Assembly (NCBI RefSeq): GCF_000430825.1 | Contig: NZ_AUMT01000003.1 | Coordinates: forward strand, 248,001-312,000 | DNA: 64,000 bases | Reading direction: 5' to 3' | Source: Chryseobacterium daeguense DSM 19388 | GTDB taxonomy: Bacteria; Bacteroidota; Bacteroidia; Flavobacteriales; Weeksellaceae | Part shown: positions 9,494 through 51,986 of the stretch, piece by piece | Position numbering within the stretch: position 1 is the stretch's first letter | Layout of the letters: every line of letters starts with the position of its first letter | Notes under the pieces: model-generated | The model's input: the letters and a program-made list of their open reading frames with translations, nothing else | Database searches by the model: none | Told to the model about the DNA's origin: nothing | Made by a program: the position numbers and the translations under genes

Positions 9494-9559
9494 CAAATTT
9501 CTTAAAAAAGGACTTCACCTGAAACAATCTAACATTAAGTTTTGTTAACATTGCATTAA
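9494..9559 (-). promoter_or_regulatory. Predicted promoter with Pho-box-like hexamer repeats (PiT operon)
   Basis: On the minus strand: TTAATG (9559), TTAACA (9548), TTAATG (9538) and a weaker TTGTTT (9527-9522), spaced 11, 10 and 11 bp. Twenty nt further is GAAATTTG (9501-9494), close to the -7 consensus TAnnTTTG. The spacing matches the susC and Oar-like receptor promoters in this window. Weakest of the three. Confidence 0.5.
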
Positions 9560-9578
9560 CGACTGGTTATCAAATAAA

Positions 9579-31760: not shown

Positions 31761-32195
31761 TTAATGTTTTAAGACTTTATAAGTAAGTTTTTCTCCACTG
31801 TTGAGATGAAAGATAATGACATACATACCTACAGGTTCATCAGAAAGATCAAGTGTAACCTTACCTTCCCTTTTGTTAAAAGGAATCGATCTGAATTGTG
31901 TAAAATTGTAAGCCACATATTCTATCCGTTCTATCATATCTCCAAGTTCTGGTTTCCAGACAAGATTTACCTTATCTTTGGTAGGATTGGGATAAACTTT
32001 TACCTGATAGGCTTCGGGTGGGAATTCTTCCTTTGTGATCAAGGTTTCCTGTGTTGCAGTTTTGCCAAGAACAGCACACATACCGCAATACTGTCTTACT
32101 TTTTGGTTACCGCCTGTATCATATTCAAAAGTAAGGGTCTGAGCCGCTACATTCTGAAAAAACACTACAGGCAAAACAAGTAAAATGTTTTTCAT
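31761..32195 (-). CDS. Small T9SS-sorted protein preceding the Rhs gene
   Basis: 144 residues. Signal peptide (MKNILLVLPVVFFQNVAAQ), a 50-residue segment with TLTFEYDTGGNQKVRQYCGMC, and a complete type A type IX secretion C-terminal sorting domain (QVKVYPNPTKDKVNLVW to GMYVIIFHLNSGEKLTYKVLKH). The short FEYDTGGNQ stretch resembles one YD/Rhs repeat unit. Twenty-five nt separate it from the Rhs start, so the two are one operon. The Rhs protein itself has no sorting domain, which makes an accessory role in export or display possible (inference). Confidence 0.85.
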   Translation of the reverse strand: MKNILLVLPVVFFQNVAAQTLTFEYDTGGNQKVRQYCGMCAVLGKTATQETLITKEEFPPEAYQVKVYPNPTKDKVNLVWKPELGDMIERIEYVAYNFTQFRSIPFNKREGKVTLDLSDEPVGMYVIIFHLNSGEKLTYKVLKH

Positions 32196-32212
32196 GGTAG
32201 TTAATTTTTTTT

Positions 32213-32242
32213 CAAAAATAGTAAAATGACTTAAAAAATCAA
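32213..32242 (-). promoter_or_regulatory. Probable promoter of the Rhs operon
   Basis: TATTTTTG on the minus strand (32220-32213) fits TAnnTTTG, with TTG (32242-32240) 19 nt upstream. It lies 18 nt from the first ATG of the operon. Confidence 0.5.
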
Positions 32243-32472
32243 TATTTATTCTCTTAAAAATGAATTAATTTAACGTTAATTGAAAATATATTAAAATTAC
32301 AAAACATAAAACACTAAAAAACAGCGTCAATCAATTATTAAAAATATTTTCTATATGGTAAAATTCCATTTTAAATCTCGTAAAAGAGACTAAATAAATT
32401 GGCTAATCCTTTGAACACAGCAATATTTTTAATAAAAATCAATATTTTCTTTTTTAATTCAAAAAAACTATA

Positions 32473-32737: not shown

Positions 32738-33153
32738 TTACACATAACCGCTTGCTAACCTGAGTAATACAGCAATACTCCATTCTCCCGGGCGAAGAAA
32801 CATCACTATTTTTATACATGATTTTTCAGGATAAATCGAACAAAGATTCTTTCATATTTCTTTCAAACAGTCATTTCCGGGTGCATTTCTTATTTCCGAA
32901 ATCTTTTTAACACTTTATAAAGAGAAAAAGGCCGATTATTAATTGGCATACAAAATAATTTTATTTTATAAATCATTTTTGAAACACCGTTTTGGAGTGA
33001 ATTGTTAAGAAACTATAATTTATTTAAAAACCTGTGCTCATACAATATCAGATCGACCGATCACCGCTCCAACTGCAAGATAATGATGAAGAAAAAGTTG
33101 ACTTATTATTTAATCTAATATTACTAAATTGCATAAACAACAAACACTATAAA
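32738..33153. other. Spacer before the AraC pair
   Basis: AT-rich, no RNA gene or repeat recognised. An in-frame extension of the AraC gene back to 33034 is possible but has no homologous character. Confidence 0.5.
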
Positions 33154-34134
33154 ATGGAAAATTTTTCCTTTCAATATAGCTATGACTACAATAAACTTAT
33201 AAAAAACATTGAAGAATCCGTTGATACTCATGCTATTGAAAACCGCATAAAAATTAGTAATTCCTCATTTAATGGAGAATATATTTTTTGTCAGGTTGAT
33301 GAAAATATTTCTGTCATGATAATAGATGCCTTGTACGATAATGATACCCTATTTCATATCCGAAATGATGACGACAGTTTTATTGGAATGTACTATAATT
33401 TATCAGACACTGATTTTAAATTAAACATTGGCGGTCAGTTTTTTAAAGTAGGAAATACATTCAATAACCTTACAACACTGGACAGCTCTCTTAACTGTGA
33501 TGTGATAGTAAAAAAAGGCTGCAAGGCCTACAATTTTTATATATTCATAACAAAAGGGGCCGCAAAATCTTATCTTCCACAATCCGAGAAAACCATTAAA
33601 CATATTGAAGACTTACTTAACGAAAAGAAGAACACAATTATTCGTTTTGAAAGAATAAATTACGCTAGCTTATCTGTTTTAAAAGATCTTAAACTCCAGT
33701 TAGAAGAAGGCTTGTTCACAGAATTTTTCATTAAAAGTGCTGCTTACGAATTATTGGATATCTATATCAAACATATCATTGTATCACAAAGAATCGTAGG
33801 AAAAATAACGGATACCGAGCTGAATTATATTTTAATTTCCCAGCAGACTTTATTAGAATCAGTGAATGGGGATTTTCCAAGTATTGAGTCTTTGTCTAGG
33901 GAGGCTTGCATGTCGCCTACCAAATACAAAAATATTTTCAAAAAGATCATTGGAACCAGCCCTAAATCCTACTTTTTATTTAATAAATTAGAAAAAAGCA
34001 AGAAGATGCTTATATCGGGTTATTCTGTAAATGAAGTTTCTTATAAATTAGGCTACAAAAGCAGTTCCCATTTTGTAAACCAGTTTAAGGCGGAATATGG
34101 TATAACACCTAAGGATTTCATATTAAAATTTTAG
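33154..34134 (+). CDS. AraC family transcriptional regulator (first of two)
   Basis: 326 residues from ATG 33154 (MENFSFQYSYDYNKLI). The N-terminal 200 residues are a divergent sensor without an AraC cupin signature I can name. The C-terminal 100 carry two helix-turn-helix units: SIESLSREACMSPTKYKNIF and SVNEVSYKLGYKSSSHFVNQ, ending in the typical FKAEYGITPKDF. It ends 1 nt before the next AraC gene, so the pair is translationally coupled. Confidence 0.85.
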   Translation: MENFSFQYSYDYNKLIKNIEESVDTHAIENRIKISNSSFNGEYIFCQVDENISVMIIDALYDNDTLFHIRNDDDSFIGMYYNLSDTDFKLNIGGQFFKVGNTFNNLTTLDSSLNCDVIVKKGCKAYNFYIFITKGAAKSYLPQSEKTIKHIEDLLNEKKNTIIRFERINYASLSVLKDLKLQLEEGLFTEFFIKSAAYELLDIYIKHIIVSQRIVGKITDTELNYILISQQTLLESVNGDFPSIESLSREACMSPTKYKNIFKKIIGTSPKSYFLFNKLEKSKKMLISGYSVNEVSYKLGYKSSSHFVNQFKAEYGITPKDFILKF

Positions 34135-34135
34135 A

Positions 34136-35131
34136 ATGATGAGAAAATTTGAACATATAGATGCTATTGAAACTATCTGGGCGCAAAAATTTATTGATGA
34201 ACTCGGGTTTTCACTGAAAGATAACAAATATTTACTTGCTCCTGAAAAGGTATGGGATGGTGGTATTTATTTTAAATACTTTCACAAGGGTTTTGCCTTA
34301 GCTGTTGTGGATTATATCGCAAAGGAAAAAATAGAATTCATAAAAAAACCGGCAGAAAACATCGACTTTTATTATATAATGTATGATCTGAGCGAGGGTA
34401 AAAACCAACATACAATAGACAGTAAACCCTATGAAATGGGAAAAAATTCGGATTTCAATTTTGGTTTCCTGGAGGGCAATACAGAAAGAAGAGTGATACC
34501 AGAAATAGGAAAAAGAACCTTCTCTTTTAGAATACTGGTTTCTAAAACCTTTTTTAATGAGCTTTTAAAAGAATATAGCTCCGGTGCATTCAATGATATT
34601 CTTCAGGAAAATCTTGTAAAGCATTTACATTTTTACGGCTATGCAGACAGCAAATCCAAAATTCTTCTTGAGCAGCTAACCCGCCGAAGGCTTGGAGATA
34701 ATAATTATGAGCTCTTAGCGCTTTCCCTTGCCCATAAGATTTTAGGGAATTTCATGAAAAGCCTTGTGAAGACCAATACTTTTATCATGAAACATTCTAA
34801 AGCCGATCATGATGCCATCATCCATATAAAAAAATATCTTGATGAAAATCTAACATCACTTTTTGAAGGAATAGATGCACTAGCATCAAAAGCCGGAATG
34901 TCTGCATCCAAATTTAAGCTTCTTTTCAAAGAAATGTATGGTATAACCCCGGCTAATTATCATAAGACCGAAAAGCTTAAACTGGCAAAGGCGATTTTAG
35001 AAAGCAATAATTACAGTACAGTTACTGACTTAGCTTATGAATTCAATTACCATAAGCCATCTTATTTCATTTCTGTTTTCAAAAAAGAGTTTGGCTTCAC
35101 TCCCCATGAGCTTATACGAAACGATAAGTAA
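34136..35131 (+). CDS. AraC family transcriptional regulator (second of two)
   Basis: 331 residues (two adjacent ATG codons; either may be used). N-terminal sensor region unlike known ligands. C-terminal HTH pair: GIDALASKAGMSASKFKLLFKEMYGITPANYH and TVTDLAYEFNYHKPSYFISVFKKEFGFTPHE, each split over normal helices. Similar in size and layout to the gene before it, so probably an old tandem duplicate. The downstream surface protein gene converges on it. Confidence 0.87.
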   Translation: MMRKFEHIDAIETIWAQKFIDELGFSLKDNKYLLAPEKVWDGGIYFKYFHKGFALAVVDYIAKEKIEFIKKPAENIDFYYIMYDLSEGKNQHTIDSKPYEMGKNSDFNFGFLEGNTERRVIPEIGKRTFSFRILVSKTFFNELLKEYSSGAFNDILQENLVKHLHFYGYADSKSKILLEQLTRRRLGDNNYELLALSLAHKILGNFMKSLVKTNTFIMKHSKADHDAIIHIKKYLDENLTSLFEGIDALASKAGMSASKFKLLFKEMYGITPANYHKTEKLKLAKAILESNNYSTVTDLAYEFNYHKPSYFISVFKKEFGFTPHELIRNDK

Positions 35132-41331: not shown

Positions 41332-42915
41332 CTAAGGAATAAGAACTGAGTTTTGAACCTCAAATTCTTCTGATGTTGAGAACTGATTTCCATACATATC
41401 CATCGCTCTTACCTCAACCTTATGTTTTCCCAATGATAGTTTATTTCCGAATCCTCCTACCCAGATGTGTCTCGACATTTCAGGGTTTGAAGGCCTTCTT
41501 CCCGGGAAAAGATTCTGTGTGGTATCCCACTTGAAAACGGACATTGCAAAGTTTGGATCGATGGTTTCATCGTAATCCATATCTTTCCATTCTCCGCCGT
41601 CTATTCTGTATTCCACTTTGTCTTTTTTGCTTCCAATAAAGAAATTAGCCAATACTTTTGCAGAAGTTTTTGATGGGAAAGGAATTACTTTCGGAACATA
41701 TAATTTGATCTGATAGTCCTCCGGTTTTCCTGCTGTTTTGTACTTAACTTTATACTGATTATCATCAAAACTGATGAAAGAATATCCTTTTGCCGTACCG
41801 TCTCTCATGGTGGAAGTCGGCAACCCGATTTCATCTGAAGTTCCTGACCACCAATCGCCGCAGGTAGTTCCTACGTTGTATTCGTGAAGGTCTTTTGAAC
41901 CATTCCATCCTGCCTGTTTTCCGTAGAAAATCTGCTGCTGAATGTGAGTGTGGGCCGATAAGATCAATGCATTTTTGAATGGCGTTAAATAATCAAACAG
42001 TTTCTGACGGTCAGAATTTCTGAAATTATCTTCGTTTTTGTGATCCAGCGGAATGTGGAATGAAACAACCACCAGCTTATTTTTATCAACCAATTTAAGG
42101 TCGTTTTCCACGAATTTCATCTGATCTTCACGGAAACCGCCCCAATATCCTTTTCCGTCTCTTGGATCCGGATATAAAATATCATCCAAAATAATGAAGT
42201 GAACATTTCCGTAATTGAAAGAATAGTTGGCCGGCCCGAAATTGGATTCAAAAGTTTCATCGGAAAGCATATCTTCCTTGGCATCATAGTTCATATCATG
42301 GTTACCCATAACGTTGTACCACGGTAATCCCACTTCTTTCATCACGTCTGCGTAAGGCTTTTGAAGGCTCAGATTGTCTCCTACCAAATCTCCTAAGCTG
42401 ATTCCCAATACTGCATTTTTCTTGGTATTCTTAACTTCATTTACAATCGCTCTTCTGAAGTAATCAAGCTCTTTTTCCGTGTAAGGCTGCGGATCCCCGA
42501 AGACAAGAATATCGAAGTTTTTGCTTTCATTTTGTTTGTTTAATGCAAAGTTTACTTCTTTTGGAAGCTCGCCTGTAGGCGCTGATCCTTTATATTTAAA
42601 CTCTGCCGGAGAACCTTTTGGCTTATATTGATAATAATATTGAGGAAGATTATTTCCATTCACCGGAGTCATATATCCTGAAGGCTTGATCACAAAAATG
42701 GTCTGTCCATCCTGAACCGGAAGGCTGTATCTTCCGTTTTTATCCGTTAGAATAACCTGTGTCCCGTTGGAAACCGCTACCCCTTCGATTCCTTTTTCTT
42801 TGTTTTCTTTTTTTTGGTTTTTGTTGCTGTCTTCATATACATATCCCGAAACAGAAGCCTGTGAAAATGCCATCGCTGAAATTAATAGACATGGCATTAA
42901 AAATTTTATATTCAT
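41332..42915 (-). CDS. Calcineurin-like phosphoesterase with N- and C-terminal beta domains
   Basis: 527 residues. Signal peptide (MNIKFLMPCLLISAMAFSQ). An N-terminal metallophos_N fold with SGYVYEDSNKNQKKENKEKG, then the calcineurin core with metal motifs DILVFGDPQPY (D-x-x variant of DxH), GISLGDLVGDN (GDxxxD), NVMGNHDMNY (GNHD) and ALILSAHTHIQQ (GHxH variant), then a C-terminal beta domain (VLANFFIGSKKDKVEYRIDG). Exported phosphodiesterase or phosphomonoesterase. It sits 95 nt behind susD on the same strand, so probably processes what the SusCD pair imports (inference). Confidence 0.9.
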   Translation of the reverse strand: MNIKFLMPCLLISAMAFSQASVSGYVYEDSNKNQKKENKEKGIEGVAVSNGTQVILTDKNGRYSLPVQDGQTIFVIKPSGYMTPVNGNNLPQYYYQYKPKGSPAEFKYKGSAPTGELPKEVNFALNKQNESKNFDILVFGDPQPYTEKELDYFRRAIVNEVKNTKKNAVLGISLGDLVGDNLSLQKPYADVMKEVGLPWYNVMGNHDMNYDAKEDMLSDETFESNFGPANYSFNYGNVHFIILDDILYPDPRDGKGYWGGFREDQMKFVENDLKLVDKNKLVVVSFHIPLDHKNEDNFRNSDRQKLFDYLTPFKNALILSAHTHIQQQIFYGKQAGWNGSKDLHEYNVGTTCGDWWSGTSDEIGLPTSTMRDGTAKGYSFISFDDNQYKVKYKTAGKPEDYQIKLYVPKVIPFPSKTSAKVLANFFIGSKKDKVEYRIDGGEWKDMDYDETIDPNFAMSVFKWDTTQNLFPGRRPSNPEMSRHIWVGGFGNKLSLGKHKVEVRAMDMYGNQFSTSEEFEVQNSVLIP

Positions 42916-43010: not shown

Positions 43011-44465
43011 TTACGGTTTATTCCACCAAACTTTTACGTTGATATCATCACCGCCCATCTGCTGAACTGCTGTCTGATAGTTTGCCGTATTCAACACTTT
43101 TGGATTCGGTGGATACATTAATCTTGAAGGAAGGTTTCCGTTGTTCAACAATCCGCCGTTGTTTGGAAGCACCGGAAAGCCCGTTCTTCTTTTTTCAAAC
43201 CATTGCTGCTGATCCACAAAGAACAAAGCCACATATTTCTGAAGCATAATTCTCTCTAAAGTCCCGTTGTAAGCCACATTAGGATTCGTAAAATAATTGG
43301 CCGGCATGGTAGAACCCCACTGCTCGATAGTCGCTTTTACTCCATTTTCATAGAACGTCTGTGCATTTCCCGGAATAATTCCTTTAAATGCCAGCTCGGA
43401 AAGCGTAAACTGCAATTCTGCATACGGATAAATCAAAATATTTAACGGTGCTTTTGCAAGATTCTGATTCATGTTTGAAGGCTGATAATTGAACGTCGTC
43501 CCGAAAGCATATCCGGAAGGAGCTCCTTTATAACCGATATTTGCATTGGTGGCAAGATCTTTTGCCTGCCCGAAGAACATAGACATTCTTGGGTCATTAT
43601 TTTGTTTTAAAGTTTCAACAAAAAACGCTGAAGCGGCTCTTCCTGTCGTGAAATCCTGAGGTCTTGCAATTGGCGGAAGAAGTGGTGCAACTCCCGTGAT
43701 GTTTAGTTTAGCGGTCTCTGCATTGCTCTGGAAAATAGGAAATGTAGTTGGGTTATTTATGATTTCCTGAATTCTTTCATGTACATTTACCTCACCATTT
43801 TTACTCAAAATCCTTGTTAATAATCTTAAAGAAAGTGAATTACAGAATTTTTTCCAGTTGGTAATTCCGTTGGTGTCTGTTCCTGCATTGTAGAAAAGGT
43901 CTGTTCCTGAAATTGGCTTGTTGGTGATGAAAAGTGAGTTTGCTTCTTTCAGATCATTCAGTAACTGAATATAAATATCCTTCTGCTTATCAAATTTCGG
44001 CTGGGTAATTCCTTCATCCAACCTTGAGGCTTCTGTAAAAGGAACGTCCCCGAAACTATCTGTAAGATTTGAAAGAATCCATGCGTTCATTACCAGGGCA
44101 ATTGCCTGATAATTTTTATCATTTGACTTAATAGCAGCCATTTTAAGGTCTCTGATCTGCTTCAGCCATCTATAATTGTTATTCCAGAAGCCAGCTCCTG
44201 TATTTTCGGTCATGTAGTAACGGCTCAGGGAATTTCCTTCATTAGGAAAATCAAGGGAAACCTGCATGATATCGAAAGTAAAATCATTAGCCCTCATATA
44301 ATTAATTGAGGCCATATTGTACTGTGCCGGCGCGAGAAAACTTGATACCTCAGGCTCCAATATCCTGCTTGTATCTGTATTGATTTCGTCTAAAGTCCTG
44401 TCGCAAGATAGAGTGACTAAGCCCAATCCGGCCAGAAGAAAATATTTAAGTATTGTTTTTTTCAT
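43011..44465 (-). CDS. SusD/RagB-like outer-membrane substrate-binding lipoprotein
   Basis: 484 residues. Lipoprotein signal with VTLSC (Cys21). The body resembles the SusD-like_2 group (ILEPEVSSFLAPAQYNMASI; NAWILSNLTDSFGDVPFTEA with the classical DxxGDVP motif; ELAFKGIIPGNA; WGSTMPANYF; LQKYVALFFVDQQQWFEKRR). It forms the lid on the SusC barrel and captures ligand at the cell surface. Starts 11 nt behind susC. Confidence 0.93.
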   Translation of the reverse strand: MKKTILKYFLLAGLGLVTLSCDRTLDEINTDTSRILEPEVSSFLAPAQYNMASINYMRANDFTFDIMQVSLDFPNEGNSLSRYYMTENTGAGFWNNNYRWLKQIRDLKMAAIKSNDKNYQAIALVMNAWILSNLTDSFGDVPFTEASRLDEGITQPKFDKQKDIYIQLLNDLKEANSLFITNKPISGTDLFYNAGTDTNGITNWKKFCNSLSLRLLTRILSKNGEVNVHERIQEIINNPTTFPIFQSNAETAKLNITGVAPLLPPIARPQDFTTGRAASAFFVETLKQNNDPRMSMFFGQAKDLATNANIGYKGAPSGYAFGTTFNYQPSNMNQNLAKAPLNILIYPYAELQFTLSELAFKGIIPGNAQTFYENGVKATIEQWGSTMPANYFTNPNVAYNGTLERIMLQKYVALFFVDQQQWFEKRRTGFPVLPNNGGLLNNGNLPSRLMYPPNPKVLNTANYQTAVQQMGGDDINVKVWWNKP

Positions 44466-44476
44466 GTCTGATTAAT

Positions 44477-47455
44477 TTAAAATTTTACATTAAGCTGGAA
44501 CCCTACCGTTCTGGCAGTCGGTAACTGACCTACTTCCACTCCAGGAGTGATAGTTGCATTGTCTAAAGTGGCCACTTCCGGATCGAATAATGGAAATTTC
44601 GTCCACATCCAAAGATTTCTACCGAAAATAGCTATGGTAAGATCTGTTAACTTTAAATTTTGAGTGAGTGATTTAGGGAAAGAATATGAAATCCTTGCGT
44701 CTCTCAATTTTATAAAAGAGGTATCGAATGTATTGGTTTCTACATTTGCTCTTCTGTAATAATCTGCATAGTAGGTAGATAACGGGATGCCTTTAACATT
44801 GGTAGAATAAGATCCGTCGGCATTCTGCACAACTCCACTTCCTATAATTAAGCCATCCGGATTTTCTCTTCCTACAAGGGTATGCTCAAGTTTCCCCTGT
44901 TCCGACATCTTGTGGTGAGACTGGGAATAGGCAACTCCTTTGTACTGCCCGTCAAATGAGAAACTTATAGTAAAGTTTTTAATTTTAAATTCATTCTGAA
45001 GGCCGGCTCTCCAAAGTGGATATGCATTTCCGATTTTCTTCACTTGGGTTGGTTTCGCCGTCAATCCATCTGATCCGTATATTACCTGACCGTCCGGAGA
45101 ATACATCAGACCGTATCCGTACATATCTCCAAGAGATCCACCTACAACCGCATTATAATACACTACTCCGCCTACACTTCCCATAGTATAAGGCTCTCCT
45201 TTAAATTCTTCAGGTAAAGACAGGATCTTATTTCTGTTCATAGACCAGTTTGCTGATATATTCCATGAGAAATTTTTGTTTTTAACAGGATATGCATTCA
45301 ATATCATCTCGATTCCCCTGTTCCTGATTTCTCCGGCGTTGATTACCTTTAAGGAATATCCCGTTTCCCATAATACAGGAACATTCCTGATGATCTGATC
45401 TTTTGAGTTACTTTGATAAGCGGTAATATTATATGTCAATCTATTTTTAAATAAGCTGAAATCCATACCGGCTTCAATATTGGTAATCATTTCAGGTCTC
45501 AGGTTCGGATTAGCGTAGGTGCTTGGTATTTCTACCGATCCCGGGAATGAGCTTACACTGTAATAATTAGCCAGCTGGTACGGAGTGGTATCATTTCCAA
45601 CCTTAGCCCATGAAGCCCTGAATTTCCACATGTTAAGGGTATTCGACCTTAATGCAAAAATATCGGAAAGAATAAATGAAGAAGCTACTGACGGGTAAAA
45701 ATAAGAACGGTTTGCTTTTGGAAGCGCACTGCTCCAGTCATTTCTGGCTGTGATGTCTAAGAATACTTTTTCCTGATAATTGAAGTTTAATAATCCATAT
45801 AAGCTGTTTACCATTTTATCATAAGGCTTCGGGATTTTAAAATCCTGTGCAATAGCATTCGTAAGACTGTAAACTCCCGGATTTTTAAGACCTATTGCAA
45901 AATAATCCTGAGTTTTTTGCTCTTCATACTGAGAACCTCCACCCGCAGTTGCGGCTACATTTAAATCCCCGAATTTATTTTTATAGTTAACCATCAGGTC
46001 ATTATTAAAATTAAATCCATTGATATATTGTTCTCTGTAATACCCTTTTAGGTAATTTGCAGAGCTGTAAGGTCTTCTCTGAGTACGCAATTCATCATTC
46101 CAAATCATTCCTGATCTTACTAAAACATCAAAATGCTTATCAATCTGATAGTTTAAGCTTACATTTCCTGTGATTCCTTTTCTGTTTACGCTATTCGTCA
46201 TTTCATAAGCAATCAGATAAGGATTGTCGATAAATGAGCTGAACGGGTGAATCTGGTCTACATTTTCCTGACCCGGCTTCCAGATTGGCTTGTACCACGC
46301 CAGGTCTACATTCGGATTCTGGAAAATCATGAAATAGGAAATAGACTGGTTGTTATACCCTGTTGCAGGAAGGTTATCACTTTTTGTATGCGCATAGGAT
46401 AACTTAATGCTGCTTTTTAATTTTGAAGTTAATTTATGATCTACCGAAAACTGCGCATTCCATCTGTCGAAGCCGGTATTGGGCATCATCCATTCGTTTT
46501 TCAGATAGGTTAAAGAGCCCCGGAATGAAGTTTTATCGTTAGAACTTTCTATAGACAAGTTGTTTGAATAGGTAGAACCTGTCCTCCAGAAACCTTTGAT
46601 GTTATCTTTGTAAGGTCTCCATAATTGTCTTTCTTTGCTCTGTCCATTTTGATTAGGATCATACTGGAAGTAGTACTGCCCGTCGAACTTCGGCCCGAAA
46701 GCACTGCTGGTTCCTCCGGTACTTACACCGTCTGCAGAAGCTCCGTAAGAATAGTAAAACTGTCCTGCTGTATTTTTTGTTAGTGTTCCCTGTCCGTATT
46801 CATATTGATAATCCGGCCATTTCAGTACGGTATCATAGCTGGAATAAGAGTTGAAATTCACCTGGAACTTACCGTCTTTTCCTTTTCCTGATTTTGTGGT
46901 GATCATAATCGCGCCCTTTGCACCTCTTGAACCATATAAAGCCGCAGCCGTAGGTCCTTTCAATACTGTAATGCTTTCTATATCATCAGGGTTGATGCTG
47001 CTTACCTCATTTCCATAATCAATCGGAAGATCTCCTCCTGAACCGGCCCCGTAAGCCGGTGTACCCGTACCCACAGATCTGCTGTTCATCGGGACACCGT
47101 CTACCACAATTAAAGCCTGGTTATCATCCATGCTGCTCATTGAAACATCACCCCTTAAAGTAATTCTGGGTGTAGATAAAGGTCCTGCTCCTGCAGTCTG
47201 AATCTTTAACCCGGCTACTTTTCCTTCTAATGCTCCCGTCCAGTTATTGTTTTGGGTTCTTAGAAGCTCATCAGATTTAATGGTTTCAGTAGAATATCCC
47301 AAAGACTTGTCCTGTCTTTTGATCCCTAAAGCAGTTACCACCACCTCGTCAATGCTTCTGATTGTGTCTTTCTTAGCTTTTTGCTGAGCCGTAAGATTGA
47401 CACTTACTAATCCTAGCAGTGACAAAACCAACAGCTTTTGTGTCTCTTTACGCAT
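44477..47455 (-). CDS. SusC/RagA-like TonB-dependent outer-membrane transporter
   Basis: 992 residues. Signal peptide (MRKETQKLLVLSLLGLVSVNLTAQQ) then directly the TonB box and plug (DEVVVTALGIKRQDKSLGYS, LRGDVSMSS, ALIVVDGVPM, SITVLKGPTAAALYGSRGAKG). The usual N-terminal carboxypeptidase-like regulatory domain is missing, so the protein is shorter than typical SusC. The rest is a 22-strand barrel ending in the aromatic FQLNVKF. Imports an oligomeric nutrient with its SusD partner. The promoter carries six 11-bp hexamer repeats (47500-47560). Confidence 0.94.
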   Translation of the reverse strand: MRKETQKLLVLSLLGLVSVNLTAQQKAKKDTIRSIDEVVVTALGIKRQDKSLGYSTETIKSDELLRTQNNNWTGALEGKVAGLKIQTAGAGPLSTPRITLRGDVSMSSMDDNQALIVVDGVPMNSRSVGTGTPAYGAGSGGDLPIDYGNEVSSINPDDIESITVLKGPTAAALYGSRGAKGAIMITTKSGKGKDGKFQVNFNSYSSYDTVLKWPDYQYEYGQGTLTKNTAGQFYYSYGASADGVSTGGTSSAFGPKFDGQYYFQYDPNQNGQSKERQLWRPYKDNIKGFWRTGSTYSNNLSIESSNDKTSFRGSLTYLKNEWMMPNTGFDRWNAQFSVDHKLTSKLKSSIKLSYAHTKSDNLPATGYNNQSISYFMIFQNPNVDLAWYKPIWKPGQENVDQIHPFSSFIDNPYLIAYEMTNSVNRKGITGNVSLNYQIDKHFDVLVRSGMIWNDELRTQRRPYSSANYLKGYYREQYINGFNFNNDLMVNYKNKFGDLNVAATAGGGSQYEEQKTQDYFAIGLKNPGVYSLTNAIAQDFKIPKPYDKMVNSLYGLLNFNYQEKVFLDITARNDWSSALPKANRSYFYPSVASSFILSDIFALRSNTLNMWKFRASWAKVGNDTTPYQLANYYSVSSFPGSVEIPSTYANPNLRPEMITNIEAGMDFSLFKNRLTYNITAYQSNSKDQIIRNVPVLWETGYSLKVINAGEIRNRGIEMILNAYPVKNKNFSWNISANWSMNRNKILSLPEEFKGEPYTMGSVGGVVYYNAVVGGSLGDMYGYGLMYSPDGQVIYGSDGLTAKPTQVKKIGNAYPLWRAGLQNEFKIKNFTISFSFDGQYKGVAYSQSHHKMSEQGKLEHTLVGRENPDGLIIGSGVVQNADGSYSTNVKGIPLSTYYADYYRRANVETNTFDTSFIKLRDARISYSFPKSLTQNLKLTDLTIAIFGRNLWMWTKFPLFDPEVATLDNATITPGVEVGQLPTARTVGFQLNVKF

Positions 47456-47471: not shown

Positions 47472-47560
47472 CAAAATTAAAACGACATTATGGTTATGGC
47501 TTTAACACGGTTTTAACGTTTATTAAAGAATTATTAAACGCTATATTAATTTATTTTTAA
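47472..47560 (-). promoter_or_regulatory. Predicted Pho-box-like promoter of susCD
   Basis: On the minus strand six hexamers begin exactly every 11 bp from 47560: TTAAAA, TTAATA, TTTAAT, TTTAAT, TTAAAA, TTAAAG (ending 47500). Twenty nt later is TAATTTTG (47479-47472), a full -7 match; no -33 box is present, its place being taken by the last repeat. Confidence 0.65.
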
Positions 47561-47779: not shown

Positions 47780-48526
47780 TTATTTATTTTTCAGCTGGTC
47801 AGGAATATTGGTAGTAATAAATCCTATCCCCTGTTTTTTCAGCTCTTCATAGATCGCTACGTCATTTACTGTCCAGGCGTTTGTGATAAGGCCTAATGCC
47901 TTTGCTTCAGATATCCATGTAGGGTTTTTCTGGAAAATGCTGTAGTGATAGTCTATTCCGTCCAGCCCTTCATCTTTGATCTGCTGTGGAGACAATTCTC
48001 CTTTCAGATACTGTACCTTAAACGATGGTTCAAGCTTTTTGATTTCCTTACAGATATTTAAACTGAAAGAAATGAATTCACTTTGCGATTCCAGCTTCAT
48101 GTCTTTAATCATTTTGACGGTTTTCGCAGTAAGCTCATCCTCTTTTTCCTTTGTTTTATCAGGTTTTATTTCAACAATCAGCTTTAGTGACTTGTCTTTT
48201 TTACCCTGTTTCAGATAATCCTTTAAAGTGGGTAAATCTTCACCATTGGAAAGCTTTACCTTTTTTAATTCTTTAAAATCCGTTTCCGAAATTTCCATTT
48301 TTGCATGATGTTCATCATGGTTCACTACCAAAACGCCGTCTTTAGTCATCCTTACATCGAACTCTGATCCGTAGATTTTAAGGTTCTGGGCATTTTCCAA
48401 TGACTTCAATGAATTTTCGGTAGTTGGCGGCTGCGACTGAAAATAGCCTCTGTGCGCAATAATCTGGGTTTGTGCCTTCATTACAACTGTGCTTAAAACT
48501 GCTAACCCTAAGATAAAATTTTTCAT
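47780..48526 (-). CDS. Glycerophosphodiester phosphodiesterase family protein
   Basis: 248 residues. Signal peptide (MKNFILGLAVLSTVVMKAQ). GDPD TIM-barrel motifs: IIAHRGYFQSQPPTTENS (catalytic HR and the metal Glu), GSEFDVRMTKDGVLVVNHDE (E-x-D and catalytic His), LIVEIKP and the C-terminal VNDVAIYEELKKQGIGFITTN-type end. Hydrolyses glycerophosphodiesters to glycerol-3-phosphate and an alcohol in the periplasm. Between two TonB receptors, consistent with a phosphorus-scavenging block. Own promoter not resolved: a TACCTTTA near 48548 is close to the -7 consensus. Confidence 0.93.
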   Translation of the reverse strand: MKNFILGLAVLSTVVMKAQTQIIAHRGYFQSQPPTTENSLKSLENAQNLKIYGSEFDVRMTKDGVLVVNHDEHHAKMEISETDFKELKKVKLSNGEDLPTLKDYLKQGKKDKSLKLIVEIKPDKTKEKEDELTAKTVKMIKDMKLESQSEFISFSLNICKEIKKLEPSFKVQYLKGELSPQQIKDEGLDGIDYHYSIFQKNPTWISEAKALGLITNAWTVNDVAIYEELKKQGIGFITTNIPDQLKNK

Positions 48527-48669: not shown

Positions 48670-51600
48670 TTAAAACGAATACTTCGCTCCGACCTGGATC
48701 TGGTAAGGGTTCCCTGACAATGGCTCCAAACCGCTCGTATTCAGATTATATTTAAGCTCTTTCGTTACCGGATCAAATCCTGAGATTCTGTACAGTGACA
48801 TATTTCCGTAAGATTTGTTTACACCCCACTCTCTGTTTAGCAAATTCGCAACATTGAAAATATCCACGGAAAGCTCAAATGCCCCTATTTTTTCAAATTT
48901 GAATTTTTTCGCTACACGTACATCCCAAACTCCATAGAATCCGTTTTTCCCGCCGTTTCTTTCTGCGATCTGGTTGTTATAATCCGTGATGTAGTTTTTC
49001 AGTGCAGATCCTACTTCAGGGTTATCAATTAAAGTTTGTGTAAGGTTAGGGAAAATATACGCCAGATCATTAGAATCAACAAAATCACCGTTTACATTTC
49101 CTCCGGCCGTCACTGAGAAACGTGTCCCGCCGATTCCAGCATACCTGATTCCCAAAGTAAATCCTGCAATGGTAGGTGAATTTCCATAGATCACCACTTT
49201 ATTTCTGAACTGATTATCAGAATAGGTCATTCTAAGGTTTCTCGGATCACTAGGAGTTAATGTAGACAGTGTCGCAGAATTGGCTACATTCCCGTTGTAA
49301 GAAGTATTATCCTTAATATCTGACCAGGTGTAACTTGCCGTAATTTCCCCGTCTTTCCAGTAGCGGTAACTTGTATCTACCACAAATGAAAACTGGTTTA
49401 CTTTCCCGTCACTTACCAGCTCCAGAACCCTTCCGAAATTCTGGTTGATTCTGCCGTCTTTCCAGTTCATAGTTCCGTTTGCCGCAACCGATGTTATAGG
49501 TACGAAAACGCCTCTTCCGCCTTCCTTATCCAAAGTGAAAAAAGGATCAGCCTTCATATTCCTGTCGTAGTAGAAATAATTGTTTCTTCCTAAAGCCATA
49601 TATCCTGCAATTCCCGCTCTGAATCTTTCATTAAAGAAATGTGTATAGGAAATATTCGCTTTGTAAACCACAGGAACTTTTGCATCTTCGCCTGTATAAT
49701 TGATGGTAGGAAGCTGATACTGAGGCAGTGTAGGAACTGTTCCGTAATCATTTCTATAACTGATGAAATCCGGCGTCAAACCAATTTGAGAAGGATTTAC
49801 ATCCACCGTGGCCAAATGTTTTCCGTCAAACACCAGATTATTAATTACCATATAATTATTGATATCAGATGAGAAAATTCCCGCTCCGAACTTTAAGAAA
49901 TCCTTGTTTCCTTCATTAATATTCCAGTCAAACTGAAATCTTGGCTGGATAATAAACGACTGAATCTGATTATCCGTGCGGATTCCCATTTCGTCATATA
50001 ATTTTTGGTTAAACTCTGCTTTGGGATATCCACCGTAATCAAGCCTTAAACCAGCCATTAAATCTAAGCCTCTGGCAATTTTAGTCTGAATCTGTCCGTA
50101 AACTCCGATGTTCCAGATATTTGATTTCACGGAAGGATCTTCCATCAAAGGAACTTCCCTGTAGAACCTGTAAGCCGTAAGATTATTAAAATTATAAAGA
50201 TTATCCGGATTGGTAGCCGCTTCCCTGAAATGGAACCTTCCGTTTACCTCGCTTCCGTAAACTGATCTTGCCGTAGTGTACATAAGATCTGCTCCAAAAG
50301 TATATTTAATCTTATCTGTATTATAGTATAAATTATCTACAATCTGGAAAACATTATTTCTGAAGCTTTCCTGAGCAAAACGATGTCCCCCGATTTGGAT
50401 ATTGGTAGCTTTATTACCATCAATATTAGTGATGATGTTTTCTACAATTGCCCTTGGCACGGCATGTCCCAGCTCATCATTCTGGTAGCTGTCCTGGAAA
50501 GTATACAGATATTGAGCCTTTAATTCATTGGTCATATTAGGCTTTAAGTTTGATCTTAAAGTTAACAAAAGGCTGTTGTCAAGGTTTTTATCATTTCCGT
50601 AGGATTCGAAGAAGTTGATGGCTGTGTTATCACCCAAACCGTTTTTGTTCATGTCGTAGGTGAAGTTATTTCTTAATGTCAATAAGTTTTTGTCATTAAT
50701 CTGCCAGTCGAGACGCAAAAATCCTGCATCAGAATTTCGTACTTTATCAAAGCTGCCGAACTGCTGTGTATTGGCAACACCATATTTTGCCCTTGCAATA
50801 TCCAGGAATTTATTTAATGTTGCAGTTGTTGTATTTAATCTAAGCTCATCTTCACGTGATCTGATATCAGCAATCTGTAACGGTCTAGAATCCAACTGAT
50901 GATCCCAAGCTACGAAAAAGTGTAATTTATTTTTAATAATCGGGCCACCCAATGAAAACCCGAACTGCGAGGTGGAGAAATCATTGTTTCTTTTATTTCC
51001 ACGGATATCATACGGGCTTGAAAGCCAGTTTGTTCTCAGATATTCCCATGCGCTTCCTGAAAATTTATTGGTTCCCGACTTTGTAACGGCACTTACCGTT
51101 CCGCCGCCGCTTCTTCCCAACGTCACATCATACTGGTTGGTTGTAATTTTAAATTCACGAACGGCTTCAATGGAAATTGAGAAAGGCGCCCCGCTTCGGC
51201 TGGTTGTAGAACCCGCGGAAGTTGGGTTTTTAGCCGTCATCCCGTCAATTGTAAAATTGGTGGAAGAACCCAGCTGTCCGGATAAATTCCCGCCCCTGCC
51301 GCTTAATGGAGAAAGCTCTGTAAGATTGGTGAAATTTCTTCCGTTCACCGGTAAGATTCCGATGTTTTTTGCCGTAATTGCCGTTGCAGCACCCAGGTTT
51401 CCTATTTTGTTTTTCAGGTTTCCTGTGATTACAACTTCTTCAATAGATTTTTCAGCACCACTTACATCTACATTTACGGTTACCTGATCCCCGAAATTTA
51501 CGTTATAGCCCGCCTTCTTTTCATCATTTACAATAACCGTATACGGCCCTCCAAGAGGAATCTCCTTGAAAATATACTCCCCTCTGGAATTCGTTTCGGT

Positions 51601-51771
51601 TTCGGTTTTAAACCCTGTGGATTCATTAATAATCGTTACCTTCACTTTTTCCTTCGCTGCATTACCGATGCCCGTTACCTTACCTGTTATGGAAGCCTGT
51701 GTAGTCTGTGCGTACGCCAGTGTTCCGAAGCTCAGGAATAAAAGTCCCAATACAATTTTTACTTTTCTCAT
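48670..51771 (-). CDS. Oar-like TonB-dependent receptor
   Basis: 1033 residues. Signal peptide (about 1-22, ending AYAQT), a carboxypeptidase-like regulatory domain (ASITGKVTGIGNAAKEKVKV..FKEIPLGGPYTVIVND) and an Oar-type plug (EEVVITGNLKNKIGNLGAATAI, LPVNGRNFTNLTELSP, TIDGMTAKNPTS, EFKITTNQYDVTLGRSGGG). The barrel ends in the aromatic YQIQVGAKYSF. Oar-type receptors import peptides or other ligands without a SusD partner. Its promoter carries five 11-bp hexamer repeats, like susC. Confidence 0.92.
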   Translation of the reverse strand: MRKVKIVLGLLFLSFGTLAYAQTTQASITGKVTGIGNAAKEKVKVTIINESTGFKTETETNSRGEYIFKEIPLGGPYTVIVNDEKKAGYNVNFGDQVTVNVDVSGAEKSIEEVVITGNLKNKIGNLGAATAITAKNIGILPVNGRNFTNLTELSPLSGRGGNLSGQLGSSTNFTIDGMTAKNPTSAGSTTSRSGAPFSISIEAVREFKITTNQYDVTLGRSGGGTVSAVTKSGTNKFSGSAWEYLRTNWLSSPYDIRGNKRNNDFSTSQFGFSLGGPIIKNKLHFFVAWDHQLDSRPLQIADIRSREDELRLNTTTATLNKFLDIARAKYGVANTQQFGSFDKVRNSDAGFLRLDWQINDKNLLTLRNNFTYDMNKNGLGDNTAINFFESYGNDKNLDNSLLLTLRSNLKPNMTNELKAQYLYTFQDSYQNDELGHAVPRAIVENIITNIDGNKATNIQIGGHRFAQESFRNNVFQIVDNLYYNTDKIKYTFGADLMYTTARSVYGSEVNGRFHFREAATNPDNLYNFNNLTAYRFYREVPLMEDPSVKSNIWNIGVYGQIQTKIARGLDLMAGLRLDYGGYPKAEFNQKLYDEMGIRTDNQIQSFIIQPRFQFDWNINEGNKDFLKFGAGIFSSDINNYMVINNLVFDGKHLATVDVNPSQIGLTPDFISYRNDYGTVPTLPQYQLPTINYTGEDAKVPVVYKANISYTHFFNERFRAGIAGYMALGRNNYFYYDRNMKADPFFTLDKEGGRGVFVPITSVAANGTMNWKDGRINQNFGRVLELVSDGKVNQFSFVVDTSYRYWKDGEITASYTWSDIKDNTSYNGNVANSATLSTLTPSDPRNLRMTYSDNQFRNKVVIYGNSPTIAGFTLGIRYAGIGGTRFSVTAGGNVNGDFVDSNDLAYIFPNLTQTLIDNPEVGSALKNYITDYNNQIAERNGGKNGFYGVWDVRVAKKFKFEKIGAFELSVDIFNVANLLNREWGVNKSYGNMSLYRISGFDPVTKELKYNLNTSGLEPLSGNPYQIQVGAKYSF

Positions 51772-51791: not shown

Positions 51792-51870
51792 CAAAGGTAT
51801 TGTGACTTCTCAAGCTTCCTATTTAAGGGAATTTTAACATTTTTTAAATTAAATTGAAACATTATGTTAA
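51792..51870 (-). promoter_or_regulatory. Predicted Pho-box-like promoter of the Oar-like receptor
   Basis: On the minus strand TTAACA (51870), TTTCAA (51859), TTTAAA (51848), TTAAAA (51837) and TTAAAT (51826) begin exactly every 11 bp. After 21 nt comes TACCTTTG (51799-51792), a full -7 match. Confidence 0.65.
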
Positions 51871-51986
51871 ATAAAACTGAACACGCAATTTATCGTGTAG
51901 ACAGCCAGTGCATTGGAATATATTAAGCAATTTTAATTTTCTCATAATATTTAATTCCCATATCTTTTAAATTGGGATTAGTTTAA

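Follow-up and report, generated by a model that had tools for sequence, protein, structure and literature searches.

A conserved array of 11-bp direct repeats before a SusC-SusD-phosphoesterase operon of Chryseobacterium as a putative Pho-box-like operator

Introduction

Bacillus subtilis PhoP prefers TT(A/C)ACA units, and activated Pho promoters typically carry the Pho box at the -35/-33 place, upstream of the -10/-7 element. Pho boxes are made of 11-nt direct repeats, each of them better conserved in one part than in the other (CTGTCAT and GTTCACC units are described), to which the regulator binds head to tail and from which it contacts the sigma subunit (PMC4415409). The sigma-A promoters of flavobacteria carry a -7 box, TAnnTTTG (PMC9723704). 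In Flavobacterium johnsoniae the SusCD pairs named PusCD, one of them accompanied by phosphodiesterases, are induced solely under phosphate depletion, and TonB-dependent receptors, one of which belongs to the PhoBR operon, are also induced in this condition (PMC8115612). The terms 'Pho box' and 'promoter' do not occur in the main text of that paper, and the part of the Bacteroides fragilis PhoB paper considered here mentions the Pho box a single time and in a general way (PMC3547664). Among the literature matches listed, judged by titles and the beginnings of abstracts, we found neither a Pho operator sequence for Bacteroidota nor an operator for the SusCD phosphate-starvation response of Flavobacterium.

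An operator of 11-nt direct repeats is already known, and the six-step anatomy described here for a TANNTTTG promoter varies this known form. The array shares the 11-nt pitch and the -35/-33 place with the Pho boxes of Escherichia coli, B. subtilis and Streptomyces; it differs from them in having six in-phase repeats, in reading TTNA instead of CTGTCAT or GTTCACC, in preceding the Bacteroidota TANNTTTG box with no -33 element, and in being a predicted site. Some units read TTCA or TTAACA, and the CA of the Pho consensus is not fixed. Compared with the flavobacterial sigma-A promoter, the perfect TANNTTTG box is the same, whereas the -33 TTG is missing and a repeat unit stands in its place (PMC9723704).

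Results

The array lies in a window of 64,000 nt from Chryseobacterium daeguense DSM 19388 (contig NZ_AUMT01000003.1, positions 248,001 to 312,000), whose genome measures 4.21 Mb. The features of the locus are given below in window positions.

41332..42915, minus strand: calcineurin-like phosphoesterase (MetallophosN, Metallophos, MetallophosC)
43011..44465, minus strand: SusD-like lipoprotein (PF12771)
44477..47455, minus strand: SusC/RagA TonB-linked outer-membrane protein, first gene after the promoter (TIGR04056, 543 bits)
47472..47479, minus strand: susC promoter -7 box TAATTTTG, a perfect TANNTTTG
47489..47494, minus strand: place of a degenerate seventh unit (mostly CTCA in relatives; ACCA in the window, no match)
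47500..47560, minus strand: array of six TTNA direct repeats at 11-bp pitch (evidence from letters, spacing, conservation and resampling)
TT at 47560, minus strand: unit 1, TTAAAA
TT at 47549, minus strand: unit 2, TTAATA
TT at 47538, minus strand: unit 3, TTTAAT
TT at 47527, minus strand: unit 4, TTTAAT
TT at 47516, minus strand: unit 5, TTAAAA
TT at 47505, minus strand: unit 6, TTAAAG
47780..48526, minus strand: glycerophosphoryl diester phosphodiesterase (GDPD), upstream of susC (family match)
48670..51771, minus strand: TonB-dependent-receptor-like outer-membrane protein, the receptor below (PF13620, OMP_b-brl_4)

The last hexamer ends at 47500, which leaves 20 nt up to the -7 box (47479-47472), and unit six, at -26 from the start of that box, occupies the -33 position. 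The stretch from 27 to 17 nt upstream of the -7 box holds no TTG, either in the susC spacer of the window or in any of 63 relatives. The original prediction of a full -7 box 20 nt after the last hexamer, with no -33 box, is thus borne out. Its six hexamers every 11 bp hold exactly when the TT pairs are followed, that is, with the units read as TTNA; the TTAA cores themselves are spaced by 11, 12, 11, 10 and 11 bp. A consensus scan of the GDPD-susC spacer found no terminator.

SusCD genes co-located with phosphatase or phosphodiesterase genes mark a phosphate utilisation system, and this arrangement is found here. A search with SusD gave 63 related loci, of which 61 are labelled Chryseobacterium and the others Cloacibacterium normanense and a Weeksellaceae metagenome-assembled genome; the nearest SusD relatives are from Chryseobacterium (identity up to 86%). 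The phosphoesterase was matched in all of these loci except one short locus (62/63; L035), and the GDPD in 60/63, not always at the same position. The C-terminal part of the receptor was matched in 45/63, some of the loci being possibly too short to contain it.

Arrays scoring as high in shuffled spacers, proposed with the original prediction as a check on it, were absent: first-order Markov resampling of the 324-bp susC spacer produced six units in none of 20,000 resamples and five in 33. Among the intergenic segments of the same genome (101 segments, 27.9 kb, 70% AT), six units at 11 bp are expected 0.005 times and seen once, and five units are expected 0.095 times and seen twice; the two five-unit segments are the promoter of the neighbouring receptor and apparently a site at L093:4567, which lies by a tRNA-like end and resembles a chance match. 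The control periods (7-10 and 12-15) gave no six-unit case and a single five-unit case, at period 7. When 110 promoters of the genome were examined, 65 lacked a TANNTTTG box within the scanned range; for the 45 that had one, scores anchored on the box were 6 for susC, 5 for the receptor and 3 for one other promoter, with the rest at 2 or below. That third-best promoter (window 31761-32300), in which three TTNA units at 11 bp are anchored on a TANNTTTG box, precedes an ORF of 144 aa without a family match.

The array is also rare among genes of its own kind. The genome has 24 SusC-family matches, and in the 16 that lie above the family cut-off the array precedes the window's gene alone. It is missing at the 15 others, the best of which reaches four units at period 11 when the -7 box is ignored; 14 of the 16 have no TANNTTTG box in range, and the start of one (L157) is probably wrong.

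The phase of the array is conserved. A perfect TANNTTTG -7 box stands 13-20 nt ahead of the start codon in all 64 susC promoters (the window and its 63 relatives), which we reduced to 41 distinct rows (<85% identity). The TT columns are at -81, -70, -59, -48, -37 and -26 relative to the -7 box; each TT letter of the six units is T in 39-41 of the 41 rows, and position four of the units is A in 37-41. Some linker columns drift in the same rows, such as -30 (C18 G11 A8 T4) and -62 (G16 T13 A6 C6); others are also conserved, chiefly in units 3-5. Column-pair conservation, calculated on the 63 promoters without the window after reduction to 52 (<90% identity), is highest at period 11, with 1.85 bits; none of the other periods from 7 to 16 exceeds 1.59. 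In three divergent members (L051, L064 and L072) the TT phase is intact though many letters have turned over. The degenerate seventh unit, CTCA, is found at -15 to -12, ten bases ahead of the -7 box, in most relatives.

Two explanations that need no dedicated protein bear on these data. Clustering of TTAA by chance could draw on the AT-richness of the spacers and on the frequency of short runs, since three units are the maximum at period 11 in 30 of the 101 intergenic segments; the resampling result and the phase retained in susC relatives and, at the receptor, in another genus leave it practically no probability, and we regard it as refuted by the conservation of phase. The array could instead be a bent or AT-rich, UP-like element that aids RNA polymerase. 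The array is AT-rich, and phased-looking TTAAA repeats also stand before a contig-end repeat, where TTTGG and TACTTTTG follow. Against this, TTNA is conserved rather than A-tracts, the L072 array keeps the grid with no run of four A or four T, the 15 other SusC promoters lack the array, and no susC promoter has a -33 TTG. We consider such an element very improbable. The contig-end repeat itself (L175-L177) exists in three copies, at the ends of contigs C2, C8 and C25, each with phased DNA rich in TTAAAA, a stretch of TTTGG and TACTTTTG; it is perhaps the end of an rRNA operon, and as an UP-element-like sequence it is a compositional rival for arrays of this sort. The array before susC is a real feature.

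A second array precedes the receptor gene.

51792..51799, minus strand: receptor promoter -7 box TACCTTTG, 21 nt past the last hexamer
51821..51881, minus strand: second array, TT at 51881, 51870, 51859, 51848, 51837 and 51826 (5/6 units TTNA)

Its promoter was retrieved by a sequence model built from 30 susC relatives, none of them from this genome. Run on the whole genome, the model placed susC first (73.8 bits) and the receptor promoter second (27.6 bits, E 1.2e-5), with the third-ranked match only at E 0.024. In 12 distinct rows of receptor promoters, TT reaches at least 80% at -82, -71, -60, -49, -38 and -27 and at no further column of the scanned stretch, so the ladder is one base farther from the -7 box than that of susC. 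Column-pair conservation again has its maximum at period 11 (1.91, against at most 1.77 for other periods). Together with the phase conservation before susC, the match of the susC-only model to this promoter strongly supports the predicted phased direct-repeat activator site that replaces the -33 box.

In 296 genomes of the order, a search with the receptor found 24 further loci, and the gene is present in 3 of 90 genera, its own included (E <= 1e-120). Four to five TTNA units at period 11 precede it in 23 of the 24. When genomes are counted once, 32 of 33 distinct orthologues have four to five of the six units at 11 bp, a figure that combines the counts of 13/13 and 23/24, with four genomes shared between them by contig position. 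The receptor of another genus of the family (L234, 73% protein identity) has a promoter whose letters have diverged and whose grid and 20-nt gap are kept; a homologue from another family (L235, 63%) has a promoter without the array. In seven relatives (L225, L226, L228-L232) the -7 box and the start codon of the receptor are separated by a leader of about 100 nt that holds an inverted repeat, GAAACCTC ... GAGGTT; the species of the window has no such leader.

The two strong arrays are 4.3 kb apart in one locus, so one could derive from the other. That both lie in a single locus also suits a different reading, in which another OmpR/PhoB-family protein or an unrelated regulator responds to a locus-specific substrate and not to phosphate starvation; the genome holds six OmpR-type regulators, and the match at phoX, described below, is just partial. 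On the other side, the ORFs scanned around the arrays, from 38208 to 61864, include no recognised regulator gene (two AraC-type genes at 33034-35131 are the closest ones found), and there are partial sites outside the locus, at phoX and beside phoB. We think this reading improbable.

The PhoB equivalog TIGR02154 is the best model for the candidate PhoB (L095:9334-10011), which scores highest on it of the six OmpR-type regulators, with 206.5 bits, below the cut-off of 296.2. The second on that model, from L093, reaches 204.5 bits, its own best model being a heavy-metal regulator (220.7). The candidate also leads on the Bacteroides PhoB model (190.5 bits, cut-off 270), and in its DNA-binding domain it matches E. 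coli PhoB (chain 1gxp) at E 7e-16. It is adjoined by a PhoR-like kinase, which scores under its cut-offs, and on the other side by a divergent receptor. The candidate was found in all 20 genomes compared (L127-L146), with identities of 85-100%; values of 97-100% in 16 of them and 85-88% in the other four are high for a response regulator.

Across phosphate-linked genes the site recurs unevenly. Two promoters, both in the window's locus, carry a strong version; phoX and the receptor divergent from phoB have part of it, phoB shows none, and Pit has a layout of its own. The phoX gene (L099:8479-10623) is accompanied by a MauG-like gene; promoters were available for 12 of 14 phoX loci, the match in two lacking the N-terminus. 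All 12 have TT at -37 and -26, the same positions as in susC. They contain two to three strict units; the upper units are shifted by one base, TT pairs off the grid are conserved as well, and conservation peaks at period 12 (1.79), with period 11 lower (1.70). At the phoB-divergent receptor, TT is found at -60, -49 and -38 in 13, 15 and 15 of 17 promoters, mostly before a TTCCTTTG box; of the 20 phoB loci one had no receptor match, and the pattern used found no box in two of the remaining 19 receptor promoters. Neither phoX nor this receptor was among the matches of the susC-only model at E <= 10, for which 150 of 8698 first-look candidates were scored. Autoregulation of phoB through the same array was rejected, as the promoter of phoB has no such array. 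A phoA match was present in 7 of 13 genomes, and none was found in the genome of the window.

The original prediction spoke of the same layout at two other phosphate-linked genes that it did not name, and we took these from the three-unit runs of the window. The receptor promoter (51881-51821) upholds this part; the other run, before PhoU_div-Pit, does not.

9534..9560, minus strand: TTAATG/TTAACA/TTAATG repeats before PhoU_div-Pit, a different layout that we consider not to be the same site

The Pit operon was rejected as a third site: its conserved TTAACA-TTAATG pair is 10 bp apart, stands at another distance, and is not accompanied by a TANNTTTG box in the window. A model built from four genes (R1) returned its own training genes as the best four matches in the genome, followed by the three copies of the contig-end repeat and then by weak matches, so it added no new regulon member. 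It scored 150 of 8397 first-look candidates, and with only 150 scored in each of the two model searches, weaker sites may be missed. One such match, before a 1012-aa choice-of-anchor I protein, is a weak three-unit site (E about 5) and was not counted; the gene (L210:2376-5414, contig C5) encodes a T9SS tail, and its three TTAAA units at 11 bp sit 20 nt ahead of a near -7 box.

Discussion

Direct repeats of 11 nt are the operator form of the OmpR/PhoB family, which suggests that the array would be bound by a member of it. We judge it somewhat probable that the array is a Pho-box-like operator through which PhoB activates the SusC-SusD-phosphodiesterase operon once phosphate is depleted. The functions of the neighbouring genes and the partial sites at phoX and beside phoB point to PhoB as the likely binder. 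Low phosphate would be the signal, and the operon presumably imports and cuts organic phosphate esters. The link to phosphate is suggested by the phosphodiesterase of the operon, the adjacent GDPD, the partial sites at phoX and at the phoB-divergent gene, and the Flavobacterium data on genes of the same kinds.

The Flavobacterium comparison is one of kind and not of orthology: the genes responding to low phosphate there are of the same sorts as those of the window. The F. johnsoniae PhoBR operon likewise has a receptor, and a MauG-like gene is likewise found at phoX (PMC8115612). PusD1 and PusD2 differ from the SusD of this locus in family (pf07980/pf14322, as opposed to PF12771), and the receptor here shares just the pf13620 tag with Fjoh_3841 (PMC8115612).

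The main competitor for PhoB comes from Riemerella anatipestifer. DAP-seq of its 'PhoP' gave a motif whose most conserved letters are TTTAACA and which was likened to that of ArcA, and TonB-dependent receptors were among the targets (PMC9603813). TTTAACA, mostly in reverse, also lies within our arrays: counted on either strand, 57 of the 63 arrays before susC and 12 of the 13 before the receptor contain it, against just 5 of the 45 own promoters, two of these being the arrays themselves. In the window it appears in reverse (TGTTAAA) at unit six of the susC array and on both strands in the receptor array. The qPCR primers for Riemerella 'phoP' encode the peptides GEEGLK and GYQLGAD (PMC5399024), which fit an RprY-like regulator of our genome (L096, GEQGLK and GYQLGAD; 299.9 bits on the RprY model, cut-off 370) and do not fit the PhoB candidate (NEGIDK and GFQAGAN). 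From a comparison with the L096 gene (9400-10086), the Riemerella 'PhoP' is apparently an RprY ortholog and not the PhoB/PhoP of a phosphate system, as far as the parts of the two papers considered here allow (PMC9603813, PMC5399024). We therefore dropped the Riemerella motif as support for PhoB. The arrays could accordingly be operators of an RprY-type global regulator, with the link to phosphate incidental.

The counts of TTTAACA in the arrays mean that the Riemerella motif favours RprY at least as much as PhoB, and since this motif is apparently of the RprY type and is present in the arrays, PhoB is a likely rather than a certain binder. However, the TTNA ladder readily produces TGTTAAA, which makes a match to TTTAACA a weak discriminator. 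The distribution of sites is also very different: the Riemerella motif was found at 579 of 583 peaks across the genome, with no phased ladder described in the portion of that paper considered (PMC9603813), whereas here there are two strong ladders, both beside phosphate-ester genes. TTTAACA is found in none of 12 phoX stretches of equal length, and the words 'phosphatase', 'phox' and 'susc' are absent from the main text of the Riemerella paper (PMC9603813). Given how few the strong ladders are, their place beside phosphate-ester genes and the ease with which they yield TGTTAAA, we hold PhoB likelier than RprY; the RprY-type reading seems unlikely, though it must be taken seriously.

If PhoB is the binder, we suggest the following mechanism. 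At low phosphate PhoR would phosphorylate PhoB, which would then fill the ladder, its protomers lined up head to tail. The protomer on unit six would replace the -33 contact and recruit the sigma-A polymerase, and the SusCD proteins and the phosphodiesterase could then import and cut phosphate diesters. A broader statement, which we make tentatively and which may almost as easily prove right as wrong, is that the array gives Bacteroidota their first Pho operator of defined anatomy. It would be a PhoB ladder of six steps, with TT every 11 bp, in which phase counts over letters; set 20-21 nt before a TANNTTTG box in place of the -33 element, it would turn a SusCD glycan importer into a scavenger of phosphate esters across Chryseobacterium and its neighbours.

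The ladder makes PhoB and RprY cleanly distinguishable by experiment. With its fixed distance from the -7 box it offers a testable motif with which to search a major phylum of plant-associated and aquatic bacteria for its phosphate regulon, and the promoter alone could separate phosphate-scavenging SusCD systems from those for glycans.
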